Positions 29,911-50,080 of a DNA stretch of 64,000 nt are shown here, in pieces. The notes under the pieces were generated by a model. It made no database searches, was not told the origin of the DNA, and saw nothing but the letters and a program-made list of their open reading frames with translations. Position 1 is the stretch's first letter. Every line of letters begins with the position of its first letter. Source of the stretch: Bimastos eiseni. Its lineage: Eukaryota; Annelida; Clitellata; Crassiclitellata; Lumbricidae. The stretch covers positions 25,815,516 through 25,879,515 of the forward strand of contig OY365806.1 of the NCBI GenBank assembly GCA_959347315.1, read 5' to 3'. The position numbers were made by a program, and so were the translations under genes.

Positions 29911-30030
29911 TGAAACCGGAATTTACAATAAACGGTTATTCTGGTTAACGCGCGAGTCACATGATACTGAAATCAATTCACCGAGACGACCATACATCTC
30001 ATACAGACTTTTAACATGCGGACCAACGCC

Positions 30031-30303
30031 AGTAGGTATAAAACGCTTTATCTGGGACAATTGACCATAACATAGCTCAAAATCACCCACCTAATATGTT
30101 ACAAAACGTATTTTCAACCTATAACCAGGCTAAAAATAGCCAATTCCTACACAAACCAAAAGCCCTAGGTCAAACATCAACCAACAGACTAATTTCCAAT
30201 AGTTTCGATGATGAGCCACAATTCATGCACAAACCAAAGCCCTGGTCAAAACGTCCGCCAATAGGTCAAAAGTCACGGGAATTTCCAATAGTTTCGATGA
30301 TGA
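30031..30303. repeat. Polinton left terminal inverted repeat
   Basis: Matches 38012-38296 in reverse orientation with scattered mismatches and one short insertion near 30195. It contains the sub-repeat tccaatagtttcgatgatga twice here, and gtttcgatgatgag a third time just inside (30304-30328). Confidence 0.9.
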
Positions 30304-30364
30304 GTTAGCAGTTTCGATGATGAGTCATTGTTCAACAACCAAAAAAAATTCGCTCATATATAAA

Positions 30365-33300
30365 ATGGATGAAAATATTTTCTCACTTCGACTTAAAGGA
30401 ATGCCACTCCAATATAAAATGGAGTACTCGAAGCAAACTGTGATTGAAATAAGAAAAATTGCGAAACAGAAAGGTATGGTTGGTTATACGAGACTGCATA
30501 AAGCGGATTTGATTGCTAAAATTGAAGCTAATGTATCTCAAACACTGGTCCCCTCACATTTTGCGCCAATCTCATCCAATGCTAGTTTGCTGGACGCAGC
30601 CGTTCCCAAGATTGGAATCCCAACACTCGCTCCCGTACTGGTCTCAGCGATACGAAAAGTCCTTGATAATACAAAGTCCGGGCTTAATACGTTCGCAATG
30701 TGGATTGATGGGTACATACCCGAAGAACCAAAGAGAAAGGTGAATTAGAGGATAGAAGCACCGAAAGCCAAAGTGAATTCTATATTCAGTAAAATTCTTA
30801 TGAAAACACGCGAAATGAGAGAGACGGCCACAGCAATCAAGGGCTTCACGAAACAATACACGGTCGAAGGCGCAAACGGAATTGACGCCACATCTTTTCT
30901 CAAAGCAGCTCAACCACAACTGGAAGGCCTTTTGTCCAGACTAAGGTCAACTTTGTCCTCACCTGCACAATGGAGCGTGTTGATATGAAATCTGGGCAAG
31001 TAGATTCCGAGGATTTTCCGTTCGTTTCAAAAATTGAGGTGATTTTAGACTCCACCGACACGAGCGAAATTTATAACAACGCGAAAGATAAAATGTTAGA
31101 ATCAATGGCTGCCTTCCAGATGCATCGTAGTAACTGGAGACTTAGAGCGGTTCAAAAATTAGAAATCAACACGGTCGTTTATAAACCGCTGAAGGGTAGT
31201 TCTTACATTCCACTACCGAAATGTCTAGCGAGTAAAAAGGCTATTGTTAATATGAAGAACGAAGACGAAGAATGTTTCAAGTGGTGTGTAACGAGAGCTT
31301 TAAACCCCGTTGAGCAACATCCGGAAAGAATTACGAAAGAATTAACCAAGACGTTTTAGGAACTTGATTGGTCCAGCAATGAATTCTCAGTCGCAGCTGA
31401 TGCTAATGTGATAAGTAACTTTGAGAGAAATAATAATATTAGTATCAATGTTTTTGGTCATGAGAAAGATGTTTACCTATTCCCACTATATTTATTGAAG
31501 CACGAGAGCGATATCAGTGTAGACCTATTACTCATTTCTGACGAACAAACGAAGCATTATTGTTGGATAAAGAACTTCAACAGACTGATGGCGGTTCATA
31601 ACGCAAACTCATACACTTCAATACACTATTGTAAGCGGTGTTTGATAAGATATAGAGAGCTAGAGTAATTAAAAAACACACAGAGTATTGTTCCAACACA
31701 CCGCTCAAAAGATAGAATTTCCAGAACCAGGAACTATGTTGAATTTCAAAACTTATAATAGAAAGATGAGAGTTCCCTTTGTCGTGTACGCCGATTTCGA
31801 ATATTTCATTTAACCTATAGACACTTGTCAACCAGATCCCAGCATGTCTTACACCAACGGATATCAAAAACACGTCCCAAGTTCTTTCTGCTATTATATA
31901 AAATGTTTTGACGATGACTTATATTCACAAGCTCCTGTCACTTTCACAGCAAAGAGCGAAGACGATGATGTAGCTCAGATATTCGTAAACACTCTTATAG
32001 ATAATATAAAAGATATTTATGATTGATTTAAATTTCCTAAGAAAATGATATTCGGAAAGAAAGAACAGGCGCTATTCGATTCCGCTATCGTTTGTCACAT
32101 ATGCGAAGGCGAACTGGGGAAAGATCGAGTTAGAGACCATTGCCATTTAACTGGAAAATATAGAGGCGCCGCTCATAAGAATTGTTATCTAAATTATATA
32201 GTTCCCAAGTTTTTCCCAGTATTGTTCCATAATAATTCCCGTTACGACAGTCATCTATTCGTAAAGAAATTACGAGGTAATCATAACGAAAAGATTAATT
32301 GCATTACTAGCAATGAAGAATAGTACATCTCTTTCAGTAGAGAAGTCGTAGTTGATAATTTTATAGATGAAGAAAATAAGTTAAAAACTGTCACTCGAGA
32401 ATTACGTTTCATCGATAGTTTTAGATTCCTGGCATCGAGTCTCGACGCTTTATCGAAGAACCTGAGCAAAGATCAGTGTAAGAATATAAGCAAACACTTT
32501 TCTGGTAATCAGCACGATCTCTTGCTTAGAAAAGGATTATATCCTTACGATTATGTTGATTCCGTCGAGCGACTGAACGAAACAGAACTACCACCAAAGT
32601 CAGCATTCTACTCAATACTTAACGACTCAGGTATTAGTGACAAAGACTACAACCACGCAGAGATGGTATGGAAAGAATTCGGATTCAAGACGTTGAGAGA
32701 ATACCACGATTTATATAATGTGACTGATGTTCTCCTGCTTGCTGATGTATTTGAGAATTTTAGAGATGTATGCAGTGAGAACTATGTCCTAGATCCCGCC
32801 TGGTATTATACGTCGCCAGGTCTTGCCTGTGACGCTGCATTGAAGCTGACAGGAGTAAAGTTGGAGTTGTTGAGCGACTATGATATGATACTAATGGTTA
32901 AGCATGGGATAAGGGGAAGTGTTAGCACCATTTCGCACCATTATGGACAGGCAAACAATAAGTATATGAGAGAAGCGTTTGACAATAGCAAGCCTTCAAA
33001 ATTTATAACCTATTTAGACGTGAACAACCTGTACGGGTGGGCAATGTGTAAGGATCTACCAACTCATCGGTTCCCATGGATGGGTAACGATGAGCTAAAC
33101 GATTGGAGATCTTCACCATGTATATTAGAAGTCGATTTGGAATATCCTAGAGAACGATTTCGGAAAAGACTTTTTCAAACTAATGAACAATAGTAGGTTT
33201 GGCAAGACGTCTGAGAATATTGAGAATCGTGTGGACATAAAATTGGTGTCTAGTAAGAAGGAAGCTATTAAGCTAACAGCGAGAACGAGTTACGACACTC

Positions 33301-33809
33301 GAACTATTTTTGATGAAAACCTAATCACCATTCACATGAAACGTACAAAGATATGTTACAACAAGCCTATATATCTTGGTATGTGTATTTTAGACTTGAG
33401 TAAAACTGTAATGTACGATTTTCATTATAATTACATCAAGAAAAAGTTTGAAGATAGAGCAAAGTTACTTTTTACAGATACGGATTCTTTGGCCTATGAA
33501 ATTAAGACCGAAGACTTCTACGCCGATGTCGCACCCGACATTAGAAGTAGGTTCAACACTAGCGACTATCCTAAAGACCATCCCTCTGGTATAGAAACTG
33601 GCATCAACCAAAAGATCATTGGCATGTTGAAAGATGAAGCAGCTGGCAAACAGATCGAAGAGTTTGTAGGTTTAAGATCGAAACTGTATTCGTACAAGAT
33701 GGTCGGAGTAGACCACAAGAAATGTAAAGGTGTCAGGAAGAATGTCGTTAAGAAATCAATCACTCACGAAGATTACAAAGACTGCAAGTTTTATTCGTTG
33801 ACGCGGTAA
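30365..33809 (+). pseudogene. polB: family B (protein-primed type) DNA polymerase, broken
   Basis: Replicates the element from its ends. Read in pieces: an SAP/Rho-like helix pair near the start (EIRKIAKQKGMVGYTRLHKA), a helical linker, the exonuclease I motif YADFE near 31785, an Endo VII/HNH-like zinc motif with CHICEG and RDHCH at 32090-32145, the polymerase A region (TYLDVNNLYGWAM) near 33010, and the catalytic TDTDS near 33477. Breaks seen: a stop at 30746 with frame changes around it, another frame change near 30985, in-frame stops near 31357, 31666, 31811, 32024 and 32321, a frameshift between 31668 and 31780, and an internal deletion with frame change near 33155-33185 that removes part of the palm. 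The gene is convergent with the minus-strand block and its 3' end overlaps that block by about 19 bases. The first ATG of the SAP part (30365) was chosen because it follows the TIR and starts a typical basic N-terminus. Confidence 0.85.
32045..32323 (+). other. HNH/Endo VII-like zinc segment of PolB
   Basis: Cys pair CHICEGELGKD, then RDHCHLTGKYRGAAH and NCYLNY, the arrangement of recombination endonuclease VII-like treble-clef zinc motifs that are inserted in polymerases of this class. Bounded by a stop before it (32024) and after it (32321). Confidence 0.7.
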
Positions 33810-34209
33810 TCGACATAACATAACGAATCTCCTTCGTTTATGATGACAGCTCCAAGATCTCTAAAATTCTTAATATCGAGTAAAATTTCTTCCGTGGCTC
33901 CTGTAACGGTATCGCATAGCATGCGGCAGCCCGCTTCTATCAATTCCGGATGGAGCGAGACTTTACACGATCCTTTCGTCATTCGGACACCTAAGCCTAA
34001 CGGTAAAACAACCCTCCCACAGAATGAATAGTTATCGCTTCTTGAGCAAAAAACTCCCATCTTAAACCACCCATTTGTCTTTGCGGTCTATACTTGACAT
34101 CCCACATACCTTCACACGCCTTCCACGTGACGGATCTCGGTTGTGTTCTCGTAAATTTTTCAGTCTTGGGTTTCGTCCACCCTATTTTGTGACTCGGATA
34201 ATGAAACAT
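33791..34209 (-). pseudogene. Polinton small minus-strand gene, frameshifted
   Basis: Opens MFHYPSHKIGWTKPKTEKFT and continues in another frame with KVSLHPELIEAGCRMLCDTV and ending VDYRVNE. A frameshift lies around 34000-34060. No domain recognised with confidence. The beta-rich, Gly-poor second half could be a small virion or dUTPase-like fold, but key motifs are not visible. It is the first gene of the leftward block and overlaps the polymerase 3' end. Confidence 0.5.
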
Positions 34210-34233
34210 TTTATATTGGAATGACTTTTTATT

Positions 34234-34857
34234 TTAGCTGAGATAATAACAAAAATATAGTAGCAATCCGAGAAGTGGTATGTTTTTAAACGGCGAATCT
34301 GGTCCAAGGATAAGTCCTTCGCCGTTTACGAATCCAGAGCCTGTTTTCAGATACAGACCTTCTCCCACACCATCGAGTCCAGAGCCTTGCCATGGCTTCA
34401 GGTAAAGACCATGCCCTTGTTGCCCTATCTTGTAGTTTTTACCTCGACTATTGAGATATATTGCACCACCCGATCCGGTGACTTTGTCTATGACTTTTGA
34501 TCCGGACGCTGCACCTATTCCTGATAATGCGCCCGTTGCTAAGCTCGGTAGCACGCTCGAAAGCAGAAATTTACCCGCAGTTGCTAGAAACGGCAAAATA
34601 GCGCCGATAAAGCCACCTTCGACTTTGGCATAATGTATCAAATGCGTTTGACTCATTTTGATAGTCGCGCCTTTCCCACCCTGATACGCCTTAGCTAACT
34701 TGTTAACCTGCGCTTGTGTAAGAGCTAAAACGTGGGTTCCATTTAAATCGTTGTGCTTTAATCCAATGCTAACGCCGGCTCCCGCTTGTAGAGATCTTTT
34801 GATTTTGTGTTTTTGTCCTTCCGAAAAATTAACTTTGACATTTGTGTATCGACTCAT
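34234..34857 (-). CDS. adenovirus pX/pVI-like virion protein (intact)
   Basis: 207 residues, ATG at 34857, stop at 34234. A basic N-terminus (KVNFSEGQKHKIKRSLQAG) is followed at about residues 81-118 by a Gly/Ala hydrophobic stretch beginning GGFIGAILPFLATAGKFLLS, a repeated GLYLK motif, and a hydrophobic C-terminal tail. Adintovirus and Polinton genomes carry proteins with this basic-then-hydrophobic Gly-rich plan, compared with adenovirus core protein pX and the membrane-active pVI. It is the only gene of the element without a break. The role is inferred from composition and gene order. Confidence 0.55.
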   Translation of the reverse strand: MSRYTNVKVNFSEGQKHKIKRSLQAGAGVSIGLKHNDLNGTHVLALTQAQVNKLAKAYQGGKGATIKMSQTHLIHYAKVEGGFIGAILPFLATAGKFLLSSVLPSLATGALSGIGAASGSKVIDKVTGSGGAIYLNSRGKNYKIGQQGHGLYLKPWQGSGLDGVGEGLYLKTGSGFVNGEGLILGPDSPFKNIPLLGLLLYFCYYLS

Positions 34858-34880
34858 TTTATATAAAACTATAAAAACTG

Positions 34881-35670
34881 TTAAGCCTCTCTTATATGAA
34901 ACCTCAGCGCTAATTCCTTACATCGTAGATTAATTAGTTGGCCATTTTGGTCTGTGAGAGACGTTTCCATCGTCGAAATCGTGGATAGGGTGATTGGAAT
35001 ATATATCAAATTCCTAGGGGTTTCAATAATCTTGTACCCAGGCCCTACATTTGGGAAAAGGAATAAATAATGTTATCAGTCGTTCCGTTGTTATAGGATG
35101 CCCCAATAATATCGCTCGTTACCCTCAGATTATTGACACTCATTATATCTACTATATTCTCCGATTCCTGGTAACCCGCTGCATAACGCCGCCTGTTGAA
35201 ACCGAGGGCTTTTCCGATAGAGTTCAACGCCCAAAAATCGACCATGTAATTATCCGCTAGATGCACAACAGTCTTTAACGTATTGCTGTTTGCTTCTATC
35301 TTAATATTGTATTCTTCGTTAACCATATCATAATGCTCGTTTTCTTTCATGATTCTCTGGACGTATTCGTTAATATCTGTAATTTCATAGCAGCCTTCGG
35401 GAATGGTATACTAACCCACATACCTCCACCATTCTGCGAATACGAAAAGTTGTTGTTAGTCTCATCGATGTTTGGGAATGAACAATATGTTTCCAGATTG
35501 ACAAGAGCCATCTCGTTCTTTTTATCTTTATCGAACTGAATCAACGGATTGAATCGAGTCCTTATTCGCGAACTCTAATCACTCAATAATATGTAAAACG
35601 ATGACTTTGGCTCTGTGTAACGAGCGATCCTTTCGGTGTAGTATGCAATCTTTTATAGAAGCGATTCCAT
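34881..35670 (-). pseudogene. probable jelly-roll (penton/minor capsid) protein, broken
   Basis: Read in pieces from an ATG at 35670: early in-frame stops, then MALVNLETYCSFPNIDE and NGGGMWVSIPFPKA, then after a frameshift IEANSNTLKTVVHLADNYMV and AGYQESENIVDIMSVNNLRV, and after another frameshift PGYKIIETPRNLIYIPITL, TDQNGQLINL and a terminal RFHIREA. The beta-strand-rich sequence of about 260 codons and its position beside the packaging ATPase suggest a single jelly-roll capsid protein. It is too short for a double-jelly-roll major capsid. Function inferred. Confidence 0.5.
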
Positions 35671-35691
35671 TTTTATAATATAACAGATTTT

Positions 35692-36462
35692 TTATAATGG
35701 AATGTAGAATTCATCGAAACCGCATCTATGCTTGCCGTTATTTTTATTACTAGTCTGATCTATCACTACAAATCCACGAGGTTGCTTCCAGGCTGTTTCA
35801 CATAGTTTCTTAAACTCATTCTTAGACATGTCTGTACTTACGTGATCGTGGTAAATGTGATTAATATTTTTCTGGTCTTGAGGAAACAAGCAGATAAAGT
35901 TTGCATTCTCTCTGATCTTCTGTCTAGGTAGTTTGAAATAATTTTGAGCGAGGTAGAAGTAGTCACCGTTACTATGCCTTCCCCGGATGTAGTAGGTCTC
36001 ACATTTATTTTGCTTTTCTAACTGTAAATCATCGAAAATCATCAAGTTTTTCTTGTCACGGTTCAAGTCTCTCGGATCTGGCACGTCTTCCGATGATTCG
36101 AAGAACTTACAGCAGATATCAGATTTTTATACAAGTGTTTAGCCATTGCCTCAACTACTAAGGCCGGCGGACATTTGGTCTCATGGTCTCGTCTTGGCAA
36201 TTGAACAGCCCGATGATGGATTCGGTATTTTTTCTTCAAATGCTTGCTTGAGTATTTTATACTCTGGTTGAAAGAGAGATCTTCCGAATACTTGCAGATT
36301 GACGTAGTCTAGCCATCCTGGTCGTAGAAGTAGGTTCAACAATAGACTCGTCTTATCGCATCCGGACTTTCCTACGATTAACCCTCCTATACTTCTAGGC
36401 AAAAGAGGATTGTTGAATCTCTTAGATAATACGTCGTTCCACGATAAATCTTTGACTTCCAT
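35692..36462 (-). pseudogene. FtsK/A32-like packaging ATPase, broken
   Basis: ATG at 36462. The P-loop reads GLIVGKSGCDKTSLLLNLLL: the position normally held by a second Gly of the Walker A loop is Asp, a change expected to hurt nucleotide binding. The frame ends at 36181. In another frame (35692-36084) the Walker B KNLMIFDDL appears, followed by FICLFPQ and KLCETAWKQPRGFVVIDQ, as in the HerA/FtsK packaging ATPases of adintoviruses and Polintons. A frameshift or small deletion lies at 36085-36180. It starts 15 bases from the divergent phospholipase gene, so a shared promoter is likely. Confidence 0.75.
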
Positions 36463-36477
36463 TTTAAATATATCTAA

Positions 36478-37026
36478 TTGTATTTCAAAAGGAAGTGTAA
36501 AACTCGTACTGAAACTAAAAATATTAAAAATGTTACAACGAAGAATGGAAGGTCAATGCTTAGAGGCACATGTGATATATGTGGAAAGACGAAGACACAA
36601 TTCGTGAAGTCTTCTGAAGGTGGTGATTTAGTTGGATCTTTGAATTCGGTTACCGGCGGTATTAAGCTGCCGTTGGCTAAATATCCAGGTGAGATTCACT
36701 TGCCGGAACATTCGTTTACTGGTCCTGGTACTAGACTTGATTTGAGGCTGAATTCCGATGGAACTCCTAAGGATTGGTCGAAGCCCGTCAATAGAGTCGA
36801 CAACGCTGCATATCATCACAATTTAGCTTACGACCAGTACTCCGATACAGCTTTTAGGAATGTCGCCGATAGAACGATGGTTAATGAATTGAATATTATT
36901 CCTAATCCTAGCTTACGAGAGCGTGTAGAAAGAAGTCTTGTCAAACCTATATTATCTACCAAAGCTAGTCTCGGGTTAGGTTTAAAAAAGCCTAAAATTA
37001 CAATGGACCGACCAACTCGCGAATGA
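36478..37026 (+). CDS. phospholipase A2-domain virion protein
   Basis: Parvovirus VP1u-type phospholipase A2 domains help virions leave endosomes, and adintoviruses carry related proteins. Seen here: a zinc-ribbon-like GTCDICGKTKTQF near the start, then LPEHSFTGPGTRLDLRL (the calcium-loop type G-P-G-T), then DNAAYHHNLAYDQYSDTAF and ADRTMVNEL. The expected active-site pair is His-Asp in the helix; here it reads His-Asn, so catalysis may be lost. The frame is uninterrupted, but it opens with TTG at 36478 just after a TAA, and the first ATG is at 36556, after the basic N-terminus. The true start may have mutated. Divergent from the ATPase, and abutting the integrase. Confidence 0.65.
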   Translation: MYFKRKCKTRTETKNIKNVTTKNGRSMLRGTCDICGKTKTQFVKSSEGGDLVGSLNSVTGGIKLPLAKYPGEIHLPEHSFTGPGTRLDLRLNSDGTPKDWSKPVNRVDNAAYHHNLAYDQYSDTAFRNVADRTMVNELNIIPNPSLRERVERSLVKPILSTKASLGLGLKKPKITMDRPTRE

Positions 37027-37913
37027 GTCACATAAGCCTGTAATAAGACGTCTTAGGAAGAGGAAGGTGTACGTTGGCGGTATAGATGAAATATGGGCTG
37101 TTGATTTAGTCGATATGCAGGCTTTTGCTAAAGATAACGATGGTGTGAAATACTTACTAACCGTAATAGATGTGTTTTCCAAGTACGGTATGGATCGTGC
37201 CATTAAATGATAAGAGTGGAAAATCAACGGCTAGAGGCTTCGTGAAAATATTTGAGAGCGGTAGGAGACCAGGAAAAGTTTGGGTTGATAAGGGTAAAGA
37301 ATTTTATAATAAAGACGTTAAGAAATTAGTCGAGTTGTATTCTGTGGAGAACGAAGAAAAGTCGTGCGTTGTTGAGCGTTGGAATAGAACAATGCGTTAA
37401 AAAATGTTTAAGCATTTTACAGCTAATTCAACTAGACGATATATCGATGTGTTGGATGAAATGGCTAGTAATTATAATGAAACTAGGCATTCTTCCGTTA
37501 AAATGACACCGTCTAAGGCTAGTTTGAAAATGAATGAAAAGGTAGTTTGAATGAACTTATACGGTGTTGAGATCTCGGAACCTAATATACCCAGGTTTTC
37601 GATCGGTGATAAAGTTAGAATAATGAAGAAGAAGAACATCTTTGAAAAAGGTTTTACGCCGAAATGGAAGGAAGAGATCTTCACAATTTCAAAGATTCAA
37701 TACACGGATCCACCAACTTATAAGATCACTGATTATAATGGTGAGGAAATACAGGGCTCATTTTACGAACAGGAGCTACAGAAGACTACTCAAGAAATAT
37801 TTAGAATAGAAAAGATAATCAGGAAACGGGAAAACAGGTCGCTGGTGAAATGGTTGGGTCATCCTGAGTCATTTAATTCCTGGGTTGATAATGAAGACTT
37901 GGTGGTCACGTGA
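37027..37913 (+). pseudogene. int: retroviral-type integrase with chromodomain, broken
   Basis: Inserts the element DNA into the host chromosome. The three catalytic acids of the DDE core are visible: Asp in EIWAVDLVDM (about 37098), Asp in VWVDKGKEFYN (about 37287) and Glu in CVVERWNRTM (about 37375). A frameshift falls near 37190, in-frame stops at 37398 and 37548, and the N-terminal zinc domain is missing. The C-terminal part (37551-37913) has an SH3-like segment and a chromodomain (IFRIEKIIRKRENRSLVKWL and FNSWVDNEDL), usual for Polinton integrases. The last codons are duplicated downstream. Confidence 0.85.
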
Positions 37914-38027
37914 TGACTCATCATCGAAACTATTGGAATGGCTTGGTTATCCTGAGTCATTTAATTCATGGATTGATTATGAAGACTTGGTGATCACGTG
38001 ATGATTTCATCATCGAAACTATTGGAA
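37851..38027 (+). repeat. 88-bp tandem duplication of chromodomain end and TIR edge
   Basis: Copy 1 at 37851-37938 and copy 2 at 37939-38027 both read from tgg(t/c)ttggt(c/t)atcctgag through catcatcgaaactattggaa. The second copy repeats the final chromodomain codons (WLGYPESFNSWIDYEDLVIT) outside the gene, with about ten substitutions and one inserted base. Confidence 0.85.
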
Positions 38028-38296
38028 ATTCCCGTGACATTTGACCTATTGGCGGACGTTTTGACCAGGGGCTTTGGTTTGTGCATGAATTGTGGCTCAT
38101 CATCGAAACTATTGGAAATTTCCTGGCGTTTTTCTTAGTCTGTTGGTTGATGTTTGACCTAGGGGTTTAGGTTTGTGTAGAAATTGGTTATTTTTAACCT
38201 GATTATAGGTTAAAAATAGGTTTTGTAACCTATTAGGTGGGTGATTTTGAGCTATGCTATGGTCAATTGTCCCAGATAGCGCGTTTTATACCTACT
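38012..38296. repeat. Polinton right terminal inverted repeat
   Basis: Inverted match to 30031-30303, ending ttatacctact at 38296, followed by the duplicated aacccc. Confidence 0.9.
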
Positions 38297-41200
38297 AACC
38301 CCTTGAACAGACTAGCCCCCCGTGGCGACTCTAATGCATGCAAGCACATACACGCACATGCACACGACCTAACAAAGAGACAGAGAAGGTTTGTGCCGAA
38401 TTAAGATATCGGTGCATGTAGTAAACATGTGTAAACAACAATGGAATTTTATTTAATATCATAATAATTTTCCTCATTAGTTTTTCATCTCTGAAATTGC
38501 ACTCTTGATATGGGAACTATAGTGTCTGACAGCAGCGACAGTCTAATGTGGCCAGATATTTTTTATCTGAACACCCTCATATAAGTATGAGTAGCGCAGT
38601 CTACAATGTATTCAGAACGCACACAGGCGTTCTTTGTCTAGTATTGTCGTAGGCCTACATTCAATGTTATTGACTATCGTAACACGGGGCACACGCTGGG
38701 TCATTAGCTGTGCTTATTCCCATCCCTCTTTTGTCTCTGAAATTATCGCCTAACCAAAAGCACAAAGCACATTAACTGTAAGACATAGCAAGACTTTACT
38801 GTGGACTTCCTGATGTTATTATAGATAATTGTATGTGGTTAATTAAACAATGAATGTGCTTAACGCCAGCGCGGCACACAGGCTTTGTCTGATAGCATTC
38901 TAGCCTCACTGGTATGCAAGTATGTTTATGTGTATTTTGTATACATGTATGCAAGTAGGCATGTGTGCAAGTAGGCATGTATGTGTGTTTTTTTATATAG
39001 GACATATAGGCCCTATGTATATTATACATTGCTTTAAGTGACACAACAGAGCGCTGAATCACGACATCTTGTCATTCAAAAACCAATAATAGTGACTGAA
39101 TGCAGACTGAGAATGTTTCTTTAGATCTTACTGGTCGTATAATTCAAACGAAGGACGACGTTCAAACGCATTTCAGTGTTCCAGCCTGCTTTTCCCGCGA
39201 TATACCCTACCACAGCGCAGCGTGCGACAATAAGATCTTCACAAACAGCAGAAATGCTTGCGTCATTAGGATTCGTGTCACTCAGTTCGGTAACGCTAAT
39301 TCGTGTCACTCTAAGTCTCTGAATCTCTGATGCGCCTCACTAAATGTGATTGTAATTGTAGCGACATAACAAGCAGAATTAAAATCACAAATGCATATTT
39401 TTTTATTATTTATATTTGAATCATTAACAGTCAGATCAGCAGTTACGTAATTAAACATGAAATTATCAAATATAATGTTTGAACGATGGATGGCAATGAA
39501 GATGCTTGCAGCTTGTATACAGACTGCGTCATAAGATAATGTTACAAGAACACAGAAATTCTTATAATAACTAAGGTAATATCAAATGGGCATATTTTAT
39601 ATAATGAGGAAAAATAAATGGAAATTTGGTTGATTAATTCTGAAAACATTATGCTATAGAAATATATTTCCTGAAATCAGGTTAGCAGTTAAAATAATAT
39701 ATTTATGGAAATATTTTTATAATTGTTATTTGAGAAAACAGGAATCGTTATTGTAGCCTAACTTTTTGATAATGGCGGCACTAACCTGAGTGAATTAAAA
39801 GGTTCAAAAAAGTAAATTAGCGTAGAGTTTCAGCTTTAGATATATCGATGCAATGGGCCTACTTGTAGGCTGACCTTACAAAATGTATGATACTACGTAA
39901 TATATTATTAATGTAGATATATATAAATAATACATGTATATTATATATATACACACATATATATATATATGAGAGTGTGTATTGTACACAATTAAGCAAT
40001 CACATATTATATGAATGAATGCGATTACGCAAAGGGAAGAAACGGAAGGAAACAGTCACGTTAGCTAATTTGAATTTTTTTGCTGACCTGGAAGTCGATA
40101 CTAAGATTTAAACACGCGGGTCTTATATTGCATTATTTATGTGCCTTGTGTTCAGTGTTAGTTAGGCCTAATGTTCTAGCCAGAGTTCTGAACACATACA
40201 AATGTCAGCATGCTAGATTTTGTGATATCGACAAGAAGAAGGGTTAAATATATTGGCTAATCAAGGCGACTTGTCAACATTTCGTTATATATAAGTTTGC
40301 TATATGCTTGAAGCCATGGGAGTTGGGGCATAATAGGGGTTCACTTAATTCAGTATAATGGCGTGGTTATACATGTACATCAGAACGATTAACACATTTC
40401 CCTCTAAGAGAAAGTGAGAAGCACACTCAAAAAGACAATGCTCAAGTAATGAAAACGAGTCCAGTAGTTCACAAACATGACTTATAATCATAACTTCATA
40501 AAAACCATAGAAACTTCTTTGAATGAAATAGGAGAAATTCAATCTTCGATTCGTTAAAAAATGTGTATTGGCCTCCATTCATTGACATTCTCAAACACTT
40601 TCGGCCTACACATTTTTTCTGGCCTTTGGTTACAAAAAGTGCATTTAACGCGGTACTGTATGTCGGAAATAATGAGTTTTGGGAAAATGACTTCAAAGAC
40701 TCCATACTATTGCTTCTACGCCATTTGACGAACTATCCACAAACTTTTGACCTAACAATATTCAATATTATCTGTCACGAAATTTACAATTTGCAACTGG
40801 TTTGCAGCGTATACTGAACACGCTATTCTGCGCACGCTGGCATACGTTTGAGCAAAAAATGGTATATTGACATACCTGGTAATTACTCCAAGCTCTTCAA
40901 CTGTCAGGATGTCTTTGTAACAGCAAATCGCATCTATGAGAGATTTGGCTACATTAATTTTGTGCATGATGAAGTTCTATTGGTAAAGTAATGTTTAGGA
41001 CATCTTCACAATCTATGTGAATGGGAAGTGTTGTAATGGAAATGTTTTAAGTCTACTATCGGAATGTCCTTTCCATAAAAAAGATTTCCGGTATTATGCA
41101 AAATTTGGACGTTTTACATTTCAGTGATAATTAATATTATTTTTTATGTATATTTTCACTAAGGTTCTTATATCATGTCATTCATTTGTTTGACCTCAGT

Positions 41201-45518: not shown

Positions 45519-48500
45519 GTAACTTACCGAACGGTAGGCAGCCGTCAAATTGCCTGGACGCAATAAGCAATAATGATTATTTATCGCCAAATAGGGTCCA
45601 TATACATGTACGCCTACTCATCACTGATTCTGTCGTAATTAGTTAGACGTCTCTATTCAGTTTCTCAATCACCCTATATAAAGAAGGCTAGCGCTACAAT
45701 ATCAACAGCTGAGTACTTCCTGGAAAATAGCAGATATTAATGCGTTGTCTACGTTTAGTTGATTGTAATAGAACAGTCACAGTGGCTACTAGATACAGTG
45801 ACTGTGTGCGTTCAATTATTTTTGCTAAGGCCACTTGCACTGACTTCTGTAGTAATTAGACAAACTGTCTGGACGCAAACTCAGCAATGTAGTAACCTGA
45901 AAGGGCACGATATAAATTTTCAGAATGAATGTAAGTGCTTTGACACTAAAGAGCGAACGTTCTGGCCACATTATAGTGTCTTTTTGGGTCAAAAATCGTT
46001 CTTCTCTATATCAATAGACATTGCATTATTTAAAATGTCTCAAAATTAATGCGAAATTACTCTTGATCAAGTGACAGAAGCGTCATCTAATAACGCAGCC
46101 ACAAAAGTGCCTTGCTTTTGAGAAAACATCATCCTACCTTACACATTTTGCAAGCACGCACGTAGAGATTCAGCAAATCAGCGAATTATGCACCATAATA
46201 CAGCCACGCAGTAGCCTACCAAGCGCCATTATGTAACCTGAAATAAAATATCCTCTTTGTCTCAGTTGTAAATTCTGTAATTCTCGTAGTCTTAAGTTCA
46301 TAAACTTAAGTCGCTACCTATATAAATTCACCCATGCGATACATTTGTGACGTTACATTATCAGACAAAACTCATAGCAGCTTTCACATGAGGTAAAACA
46401 TTGTAAGAATGGTGTACCTTGTTAACGTTTAGACAATAGCTACTTTCTGGAACTTAATTAAGCATTATCTTATCAAACACTGCGGCGTATATATAGGCGC
46501 GTAATATGAAGTCAACATCAAAGGCCCATTTTAGCCTGAAGTAGGATTCCACCACTGGATATGAAAAATCTTATCTATGGCTATTTGGTTAGGTGACACA
46601 AAATTATGATTAAACAGCAAAGGCAAGTTATAGCTTGCGAGTTGCTTATGAGAGAAATTGAGTTTTGGATGGATAGAGAGAGCACCGCATGTGGTTTCAT
46701 TACCAGACATGACAAACGAATAAACGCTTAAGTCAGATGTCGTGTTCGACAGTATCATATGCCGCATTCACGTCGAACAGGGCCAGTAGGGCAAGAGGCG
46801 ACCTATTCAGGTCAGCTGTAAGAATTTTGATAGCTATAAAATGTAAATTAATTATTAGAATATATTTGGCTTTATCACAAAAGACAGATAACAAAATTTA
46901 AAACGAATAAAAACTAAACTGGCAGAAGGCAAACAATAAATTTGCATAAATGAAGCTGAATAAAACACGCTCGTTAATTAATTTCATTTCGACGTAACTT
47001 AATCAACACAATATTTTGACTAACTATGCTTGTAATTTAATAAGCAAGATACGATGAAATTAGGTTAGACTGTACAGAGGCGGCGATCTCGTTTGACAGG
47101 TGGGGGGGGGCACCCAGTGAGGGGTACGAAATGTGTGGGTGGGATAATCGTATAACGTGTGCCACTGTGCCCTCTCTGCAAAAGGTGGGAGAACTTGCCC
47201 CCCCCTCGGCCTCTGGGATCGCCGCCCATGAGACTGCACTAGACAAGATTATATTATAATATAATCCAATATTATTGGATTAGAATTTTGTGGAATTCGA
47301 AAAAACTGATCCATTTATATTACACAGGCTAATAAAGTTACATATTTAATATAAAATTGACTACCTAAACCAGTCAATTCGATGATTCCTCGATATTTTC
47401 AGATGCCGATCCACAGAATATCAGAATCAAAAGGGCTGCTATCCTCTTCAACGAAGACGATTCACTGCCGGCTTTCCCAACAGCCTACCGACGCGGCGGC
47501 AACTACATCCGGTTTGGTCGTGCTGCTACAGAAAACAGTTACTACCAACCAACTCTGTTAAAACGTGGCGGGTCGTCCAAATTTTACGTACGCTACGGTC
47601 GAGACTTTGAGTTGCCAGAGTACAATTACGATGGCGTTGACATGTACAGGAACCTTGAGAAGACTGCGGACAAGCGCAATCAAAATAAACATTACGTGAG
47701 GTTCGGGCGATCTGTGGATAAACTTCTAATAGGGCAAGATGTTCTGGTAAACGAGAGTCGGGCAGGAGATAATGCGACGTCCACAGAGGGAAAGTCAAAA
47801 GAGAATCAAGCCCCAAAGCAGGATGTACGAGTTGGTGGAAGGTTGGAGAATCTAGACGAACTGGAGAAGCGAGCTCCGAAACAATACGAAAGAAATTCCA
47901 AAGACTTCGACTCAGGAAATGCTGACAAAAGGGCCCCTAAACAGTACGTACGGTTTGGCAGAAATTCCGAAGAGACCGGCTCAGATAATGCTGACAAAAG
48001 GGCTCCTAAACAGTACGTACGTTTTGGCAGAAATAATGATGGTGACGACTCACAAAATGTTGAAAAAAGGGCTCCTAAACAGTACGTAAGGTTTGGCAGA
48101 AATCCCCAAGTTGCGGAATCTGAAAATGTTGACAAAAGGGCTCCTAAACAGTACGTAAGGTTTGGCAAAAATTCAGAAAATGCTGATCCAGAAAATGCTG
48201 ACAAACGGGCCCCTAAACAGTACGTACGGTTTGGCAGAAATTCCAAAGATACCGATCCAGAAAATGCTGACAAAAGAGCGCCTAAACAGTACGTAAGGTT
48301 AGGAAGAAATTACCAAGTGGCCGAATTAGAAAATGCTGACAAACGGGCCCCTAAACAGTACGTAAGGTTTGGCAGAAATTCAGAAGTTGCCGATTCTGAA
48401 AATGCTGACAAAAGAGCTCCTAAACAATACGTACGGTTTGGCAGAAATTCCGAAGATGCCGAGCCAGAAAATGCTGACAAAAGAGCTCCTAAACAGTACG

Positions 48501-50080
48501 TAAGATTTGGAAGAAATTCCGAAGTTGCCGAATTAGAAAATGCTGACAAACGAGCCCCTAAACAGTACGTAAGGTTTGGCAGAAATTCCGAAGATGCCGA
48601 GCCAGAAAATGCTGGCAAAAGAGCTCCTAAACAGTACGTAAGGTTTGGAAGAAATTCCGAAGTTGCCGAATTAGAAAATGCTGACAAACGAGCCCCTAAA
48701 CAGTACGTAAGGTTTGGCAGAAATTCCGAAGTTGCCGAATCGGAAAATGCCGACAAAAGAGCTCCTAAACAATATGTACGGTTTGGCAGAAATTCCGAAG
48801 ATGCCGAGCCAGAAAATGCTGACAAAAGAGCTCCTAAACAGTACGTAAGGTTTGGCAGAAATTCAGAAGTTGCTGAATTAGAAAATGCTGACAAACGAGC
48901 CCCTAAACAGTACGTAAGGTTTGGCAGAAATTCCGAAGTTGCCGAATCGGAAAATGCCGACAAAAGAGCTCCTAAACAGTACGTAAGGTTTGGCAGAAAT
49001 TCCGAAGTTGCCGATTCAGAAAATGCTGACAAGAGGGCTCCTAAACAGTACGTAAGGTTTGGCAGAAATTCCGAAGATGCCGATCCAGAAAATGCTGACA
49101 AACGGGCTCCTAAACAGTACGTAAGGTTTGGCAGAAGTTCCGAAGAGGCCGATCCAGAAAATGCTGACAAACGGGCTCCTAAACAGTACGTAAGGTTTGG
49201 CAGAAATTCCGAAGAGGCCGATCCAGAAAATGCTGACAAACGGGCTCCTAAACAGTACGTAAGGTTTGGCAGAAATTCCAATGAGATCGGCACAGAAAAT
49301 TCCGACAAAAGGGCTCCTAAACAATACGTTCGATTTGGCAGAAATTTCAAAGACTCCGAAAATGCTAACAAGAGGGCTCCAAAACAATACGTACGATTCG
49401 GTAGAAATTTCGAAGGGGTAGACTCAGGAATTTATGACAAAAGAGCTCCAAAGCAGTACGTACGCTTTGGAAGAAATTCAGATGATACTACCGAAAACGA
49501 ACTTTCAGAAAAAAGAGCCCCCAAACAGTATGTGAGATTTGGTAGAGATATCGGAGATATTGAAGATAAAAACGACGATAAAAGGGCTCCGAAACAGTAC
49601 GTTAGATTTGGTAGAAGTTCTGAAAAGTTTGAAAGCGAAAATGACGACAAAAATAATCCTAAACAATATATAGGCCTAAGATTTGAAAGCAATTCAGAAG
49701 ATCCAGAATCAAACAATTCCGATAAAAGAGCAGTTAAATTTGGCAGAAGCATGGAGCAAATTGAAGAATCGAGCGACGCCGAAGCTGAGCTACTTCCTAC
49801 AAACTACATCACATATGGCACAAATCTTGAAAACGAAGACAAACGTGCTCCCAAACAATACGTCAGATTCGGCCGAGATTTCAATAATGAAAATAAGGGG
49901 AGTCCCAAACAAAACACTAAATTTGAAAGAGGTTCCGAGACCGAAATCTATAGAGATATTGAGAAACGGTCATTAGGTCAGATTGTGTTGGTTGGAAGTA
50001 ACAAACAGAGGGAAAGTGGAGCAAAGACAGCACAGCCCAAGCAGTATATTCGCTTCGGAAAACGCCAATTCGTGAGATAA
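45392..50080 (+). CDS. RFamide-type neuropeptide precursor (APKQYVRFamide)
   Basis: Exon 1 is 45392-45518 (donor CCAAG-gtaact) and exon 2 is 47403-50080 (acceptor gatattttcag, stop TAA). The split codon (G plus AT) keeps the frame, giving about 934 residues. Exon 1 encodes a signal peptide (MEALSQPKLLTVCLVVILVS). Exon 2 encodes early divergent peptides (GGNYIRFGR, FYVRYGR, KHYVRFGR), then about 25 copies of KR-APKQYVRF-G-R/K separated by acidic spacers such as NSEVAELENAD, plus a YVRLGR variant, and ends with PKQYIRFGKR. KR sites mark prohormone-convertase cleavage. C-terminal Gly-Arg marks carboxypeptidase trimming and amidation, so secretory neurons would release many APKQYVRF-amides. Such peptides act on GPCRs or peptide-gated channels in other animals. 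Degenerate units (APKQYERNS, PKQYIGLRF, AVKFGR) would not make the standard product. Very strong call. Confidence 0.93.
45519..46734. other. neuropeptide intron 1
   Basis: Mostly AT-rich. An R1-like tail near 45877-45930 (tagtaacctgaaagggcacg..tataaat..gaatgaatg). No exon seen. Confidence 0.5.
46735..46810 (-). pseudogene. LINE reverse transcriptase motif A fragment
   Basis: The minus frame reads SPLALLALFDVNAAYDTVEH then DI and a stop. This is the palm motif A of non-LTR reverse transcriptases (D..AAFDTV.H). Isolated relic inside the neuropeptide intron. Confidence 0.6.
47070..47240 (-). repeat. dispersed repeat R2, copy 2 (inverted)
   Basis: Reverse match to 25090-25240: gcgatctcgtttgacaggtg, a poly-G tract, gagagggcac and gggatcgccgcccatgag. 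It lies in the intron about 160 bases before neuropeptide exon 2. Confidence 0.65.
47926..49650 (+). repeat. 69-bp coding tandem repeat
   Basis: Units of 23 codons with the peptide block (cctaaacagtacgta) nearly fixed and spacers variable. Within it the spacer types DAEP, VAEL and VAES recur in order, a higher-order 207-bp period that points to recent unequal exchange. Later units (from about 49290) are more diverged and vary in length. Confidence 0.9.

Follow-up and report, generated by a model that had tools for sequence, protein, structure and literature searches.

The window analysed here is a stretch of 64,000 nucleotides (64 kb) of the Bimastos eiseni genome (G000:C1:25815516-25879515). 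At positions 30031-38296 it contains an 8.3-kb Polinton/Maverick-type element without genes for the major capsid protein (MCP) or a protease. The element is bounded by genuine terminal inverted repeats (TIRs), the arms of which (30031-30192 and 38135-38296) are 162 nt long and 93% identical, with further inverted repeats of 52 nt (100%) and 73 nt (93%) lying inward. The left TIR region extends over 30031-30304 on the + strand and is multicopy in the genome; the right TIR region covers 38007-38296 on the − strand. The flanking hexamers, read from the sequence, are AACGCC on the left (30025-30030) and AACCCC on the right (38297-38302), a target-site duplication matching at 5/6 positions. Both the TIRs and the 6-bp duplication typical of Polinton/Maverick elements are thus present, as the original prediction had described. 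Its wording that the element is complete by its TIRs holds for the ends; the interior carries two deletions, at 33154 and 33785.

Perfect 6-bp duplications adjoin the same termini in five of nine other copies from the genome (L013, L014, L018, L024 and L028). The duplication is 5/6 in L017 and C9 and 4/6 in L022, and the outer end of L023 is uncertain. With 12 of 194 aligned positions different and 32 gap columns, the window copy has a TIR-to-TIR distance of 0.065, more than any other copy in the comparison. The same computation gave 0.010-0.059 in eight other copies, including L023 with its uncertain outer end; the TIRs of C9 differ at 9 of 208 aligned sites. Among the dated copies, the TIRs are closest in L013 (C1:35909381-35918488), with 2 mismatches in 210 bases. 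This sister copy of 9.1 kb is flanked by a perfect 6-bp duplication and was matched by neither the MCP nor the protease query piece. A short motif is repeated several times within both terminal regions of the window copy (30191-30330 and 37910-38130), and an 88-bp tandem unit is present in 2 copies at 37849-38027.

The gene order starts on the + strand with a Rho_N/SAP-like open reading frame (ORF) and the family-B DNA polymerase (PolB), continues on the − strand with a pX-like protein, a jelly-roll protein and an ATPase, and ends on the + strand with a DUF5679-phospholipase A2 (PLA2) protein and an rve-chromodomain integrase. The first ORF (30353-30748, +) has a Rho_N/SAP-like N-terminal domain (PF07498, 5.3e-5, slightly under the cut-off) and marks the start of the replication module. 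PolB (30886-33809, +) contains stops and a ~247-bp deletion, and its 3′ end is removed by the large deletion. Its assignment to family-B polymerases comes from a DNA_pol_B_2 match (PF03175, 1.5e-7) for 32324-33193, above the cut-off, and an Endonuclease_7-like stretch in the region (8e-5) falls slightly short of its cut-off. At 33786-33860 on the − strand lies a remnant of a small protein, its N-terminal 25 codons (tblastn 88% over 25 aa, E 5e-10), directly at the junction, with the remainder deleted.

The small glycine-rich protein at 34234-34857 (−) has an open frame, 370 homologues at E<=1e-3 (best 85% identity among the matches listed) and no Pfam match; the name pX-like is the label of the earlier reader. 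The jelly-roll protein gene (34872-35692, −) is broken and scattered over several frames, as traced by tblastn with the open ORF of a sister copy. The A32-type packaging ATPase gene (35695-36483, −) is interrupted by one or more stops. Its assignment to A32/FtsK-type packaging ATPases follows from 81% identity to a sister ORF that matches Pox_A32 at 1.4e-8. The DUF5679 and PLA2-like protein (36478-37026, +) has an open frame with matches to PF18930 (1.2e-11) and PF08398 (3.1e-9). The rve integrase with C-terminal chromodomain (36986-37913, +) is broken and its window pieces match weakly; it is recognised through a sister ORF that aligns to the window at 87-89% (tblastn) and matches rve at 2.1e-7 and chromo at 0.0021, both under the Pfam cut-offs (rve by one bit). 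In summary of their state, PolB, penton, ATPase and integrase have stops and/or frame changes, and open frames remain for the pX-like and PLA2 proteins. The predicted inventory of polymerase, pX-like, jelly-roll-like, ATPase, PLA2 and integrase genes is correct. Scans of IMG/VR, which may exclude records of the source genome, found no relatives of the PLA2 protein, the penton piece or the pX-like protein, and a literature search for DUF5679 together with Polinton found no paper.

The jelly-roll protein deserves separate consideration, as an MCP fold in the product of 34881-35670 had been named as the finding that would overturn the predicted absence of a capsid gene. The intact sister version is a single open ORF of 274 codons (L011:7098-7919) with no Pfam match, and the protein has 1420 homologues at E<=1e-3. 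Modelling of one homologue with AlphaFold2 gave a poor structure at first, with a predicted local distance difference test score (pLDDT) of 56.1; its matches in a viral library included a minor capsid protein at 1.1e-5, along with a MELD-virus penton at 8.7e-3 and an adenovirus penton base at 0.012. A deeper alignment was then used for a second model, of another homologue (125 sequences, pLDDT 72.9). The best PDB matches of this model in Foldseek were the mavirus penton (E 5.1e-9) and the adenovirus penton base, with modest template-modelling scores (TM-scores) of 0.37-0.47. Some flagellar proteins were also below 1e-3; their probabilities were lower (0.28-0.90) and their TM-scores did not exceed 0.30. 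A PDB sequence search with the penton alignment (A2) gave no match at E<=1. The homologue model identifies the 34881-35670 product as a predicted penton, the single-jelly-roll vertex protein, broken in the window. An MCP fold for this product was rejected, as model and Foldseek matches point to a penton, and the absence of an MCP from the window therefore stands.

A tblastn search of the 64-kb window with the MCP, protease-like and fibre-like ORFs of sister copies gave no match at E<=1e-3, in agreement with the predicted lack of major capsid and protease genes. The double-jelly-roll (DJR) MCP is recognised in sister copies (PF21738) and not in the window copy, which is therefore a defective member of the family. 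An adenain-like protease is likewise not found in the window; in the sister copies it is recognised by motif match only, without a Pfam match.

The sister copies were collected by a search of the genome (660 Mb, 118 contigs) with the left TIR. The best 40 of 1144 first-look candidates were scored and all 40 match, 39 of them elsewhere in the genome at 87-91% identity. The 19 best-matching other sites were followed inward from the TIR (20 stretches, two for one site), 10 being extended. Both outer ends could be located in 17 of the 19, giving spans of 0.9-14.8 kb: 940, 1939, 2549, 3882, 5319, 7189, 9108, 9169, 10076, 10310, 10334, 11120, 13182, 13688, 13858, 14294 and 14822 bp. Copies with all modules measure ~14 kb and the longest spans are 13.2-14.8 kb, the 14,822-bp copy having an additional ~0.8-kb interruption in its polymerase. 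Full-length copies of 15 kb or more with identical TIRs, MCP and protease had been proposed as the sign of an internally deleted member. In substance this sign is present: longer copies of the same TIR family (at the above identity to the left TIR) contain the MCP together with a protease-like gene, though their spans stay below 15 kb.

Twelve of the 17 measured sites are shorter than 12 kb. The internal coverage patterns of the deleted sister copies are unlike one another; many copies therefore show internal losses particular to themselves. Possession of both ends with a deleted interior is a common state in the Polinton family of this genome. An assembly artefact, in which a collapsed repeat would have produced the short form, is scarcely credible. 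The family is high-copy and assemblers can join repeats; however, the genome consists of the 118 contigs given above, those encountered being 21.8-71.8 Mb long, and sister copies of up to 14.8 kb are resolved.

At window position 33785, extra DNA of 0.76-5.85 kb is present in 9/9 sites that keep both sides of this point (C9, L015, L016, L019, L020, L021, L023, L025 and L026). L012 also has 5.7 kb there, but the bases just left of the point are gone. The remaining sampled sites are without one or both sides and hence uninformative at this position. The segment of L016 is 5.8 kb long and contains, in order, the PolB end, a protease-like ORF, an F5/8-C fibre-like protein, the DJR capsid protein and three small proteins. 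The capsid protein matches PF21738 at E 1.5e-38 in L016 and 7.2e-43 in L010; a PDB sequence search with the MCP piece gave no match at E<=1. The protease-like ORF carries THW, FDS and CGHLC motifs (L020), a set which we take to fit adenain-like cysteine proteases. The F5/8-type C (discoidin) domain of the fibre-like protein scores 1.7e-4 in L016, under the cut-off, and 5.1e-8 in L019. The gene of the latter protein (L016:4702-5691, L019:4532-5551) adjoins the protease gene. Its DNA shows 82-90% identity to L016 in matches of >1,000 bp and 93-94% in two shorter ones, below most other modules. DNA of the MCP segment occurs at 11 of the 19 sites, with >1,000 bp at 8 (including the source of the query) and 114 to 402 bp at 3; the MCP query piece found no match at the other 8.

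Comparison with these copies places two deletion junctions in the window element. Junction 1 (33154-33155) lacks ~247 bp of the polymerase and has a 2-nt overlap; ~240-250 bp extra is found at 33154 in 12/12 sites keeping both sides. Junction 2 (33785-33786) lacks up to ~5.8 kb, comprising the polymerase end, protease, fibre-like protein, MCP and small proteins, and has a 1-nt overlap. For each junction search the best 40 candidates were scored, of 1118 for 33785 and of 663 for 33154. A 200-bp query across 33785 gave 40 matches, among which the junction is crossed by the window alone (1/40); the others end at the junction or extend <=18 bases beyond it. The corresponding query across 33154 gave 75 matches, again with the window alone crossing (1/75). 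Both deletions appear, as far as tested, to be private to the window copy. The sequence comparison shows that, relative to the sister copies, the element has lost its capsid and protease genes through an internal deletion at 33785, almost 6 kb in size, which no other copy in the comparison shares. A second deletion of this private kind cut the polymerase.

The other option offered in the original prediction was a lineage without capsid and protease that spreads by means of the capsid and maturation enzyme of a partner. Such a lineage is highly improbable as the source of the window copy. It would be in keeping with the persistence of the TIRs and of recognisable integrase, penton and ATPase genes, and with the 8/19 sampled sites lacking an MCP-query match, so that deleted copies are common. 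One of those eight, L013, with its perfect duplication and two TIR mismatches, is a deleted copy inserted recently. However, the window junctions are unique among the scored matches, the window copy has no intact polymerase, integrase, ATPase or penton gene, and the deleted sister copies differ in coverage pattern. There were no siblings sharing the window junctions among the 39 (33785) and 74 (33154) other matches, and hence no sign there of a capsid-less satellite lineage. A mobile deleted subfamily was also considered for the window copy and rejected on the same observation. The deletion option is supported, and the element is almost certainly an old, decayed, privately deleted copy of a high-copy Polinton/Maverick-type family and not a member of a capsid-less lineage.

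The neighbouring copy L040/L041, at C1:25887827 to at least 25898701, lies ~42 kb downstream (start to start) and bears on how the deletions arose. It has the capsid segment and keeps both stretches lost from the window copy. Over most of its length it is more divergent than the other copies, with 77% identity in the TIR and 88% in the first part of PolB. The identity profile shows the window element to be closest to L040/L041 between ~31.94 and 33.83 kb. In the range tested (31.5-34.23 kb), 54 sites match L040/L041 and differ from all five comparison copies, every one of them within 31936-33827 (+), a patch of ~1.9 kb or about a quarter of the element. The opposite pattern is seen at 66 sites, 32 to the left of the patch, 8 to the right and 26 within it, where 11 form a cluster at 32208-32220. 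The patch is likely the product of ectopic gene conversion.

The original element would have integrated by its own integrase, with the 6-bp duplication. The losses would have come after insertion, probably in break repair by end-joining, as the 1-2 nt overlaps suggest, and perhaps while copying from the divergent copy 42 kb away. Both deletion junctions fall within the patch, which suggests template-switched repair. It is conceivable, though less likely than not, that one event made both deletions: a break repaired by copying the neighbour, with template jumps dropping 247 bp and almost 6 kb. Deletion during replication of an extrachromosomal genome, with the defective genome then integrated once, is unlikely. 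Short overlaps suit replication errors as well as chromosomal repair, and private junctions are compatible with such an origin. However, the patch that encloses the two junctions is shared with a copy on the same chromosome, so that a chromosomal event fits better.

Several points weigh against the account of a privately deleted copy. The order of insertion and deletion is a matter of inference, and a copy deleted before insertion that left no other descendants would look alike. A diverged junction sibling may sit beyond the best 40 candidates, though a true sibling should rank high. The 19 sites are the best TIR matches and not a random sample. The protease ORF has no Pfam match at E<=1 and, against PDB sequences, a single chance-level match (E 0.63), so that it is an adenain-like candidate by its motifs. 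The 755-codon polymerase ORF of sister copy L027 has no PolB Pfam match at E<=1; the identity of PolB is drawn from the PF03175 match of the window piece and not from this ORF.

By gene content, as judged from sequence, the family is Polinton/Maverick. It shares with these elements the TIRs, 6-bp duplication, PolB, rve-chromodomain integrase, A32-type ATPase and penton, and, in the sister copies only, the DJR MCP and the adenain-like protease motif. The window copy differs by its lack of MCP and protease, through deletion. Additional to the Polinton/Maverick set, the family has the DUF5679-PLA2 protein and the F5/8-C fibre-like protein. In passages of PMC4028283, PX is equated with the penton and PY with the MCP, and Polinton-like elements of <10 kb are set aside as incomplete. 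A section of PMC8097293 gives 96% of 3,511 vertebrate Maverick loci as eroded, intact ones being 12.7-24.6 kb with 6-bp duplications. At the level of gene kinds, there is also a likeness to adintoviruses in PolB, chromodomain integrase, penton, ATPase and accessory virion proteins. PMC11071296 notes adintoviruses in which pentons are missing or duplicated and hexons are truncated, and, citing Starrett et al. 2021, defines the group by a PolB with an OTU-like N-terminus and by a hexon that BLASTp against adintovirus hexons can recognise. Mavirus-type virophages show a likeness in the penton, the homologue model of which matches the mavirus penton best among PDB chains.

Outside the element, the window contains an 822-codon open frame at 47612-50080 with 27 RFG motifs, 31 KR sites and a Pfam FARP match (2e-23). 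Its product is presumably an RFamide-type neuropeptide precursor of the animal host.

Neither a virion nor a full polymerase is to be expected from the window copy, which is a genomic fossil. A provirus with complete ends and no capsid gene tempts a capsid-stealing reading, while copies from the same genome show simple internal loss. If the template-switching account is true, the fossil element would record template-switched repair between neighbouring Polintons. Short TIR-complete copies are common in the family, and Polintons of this form are therefore not to be read as capsid-less lineages before their junctions have been checked.

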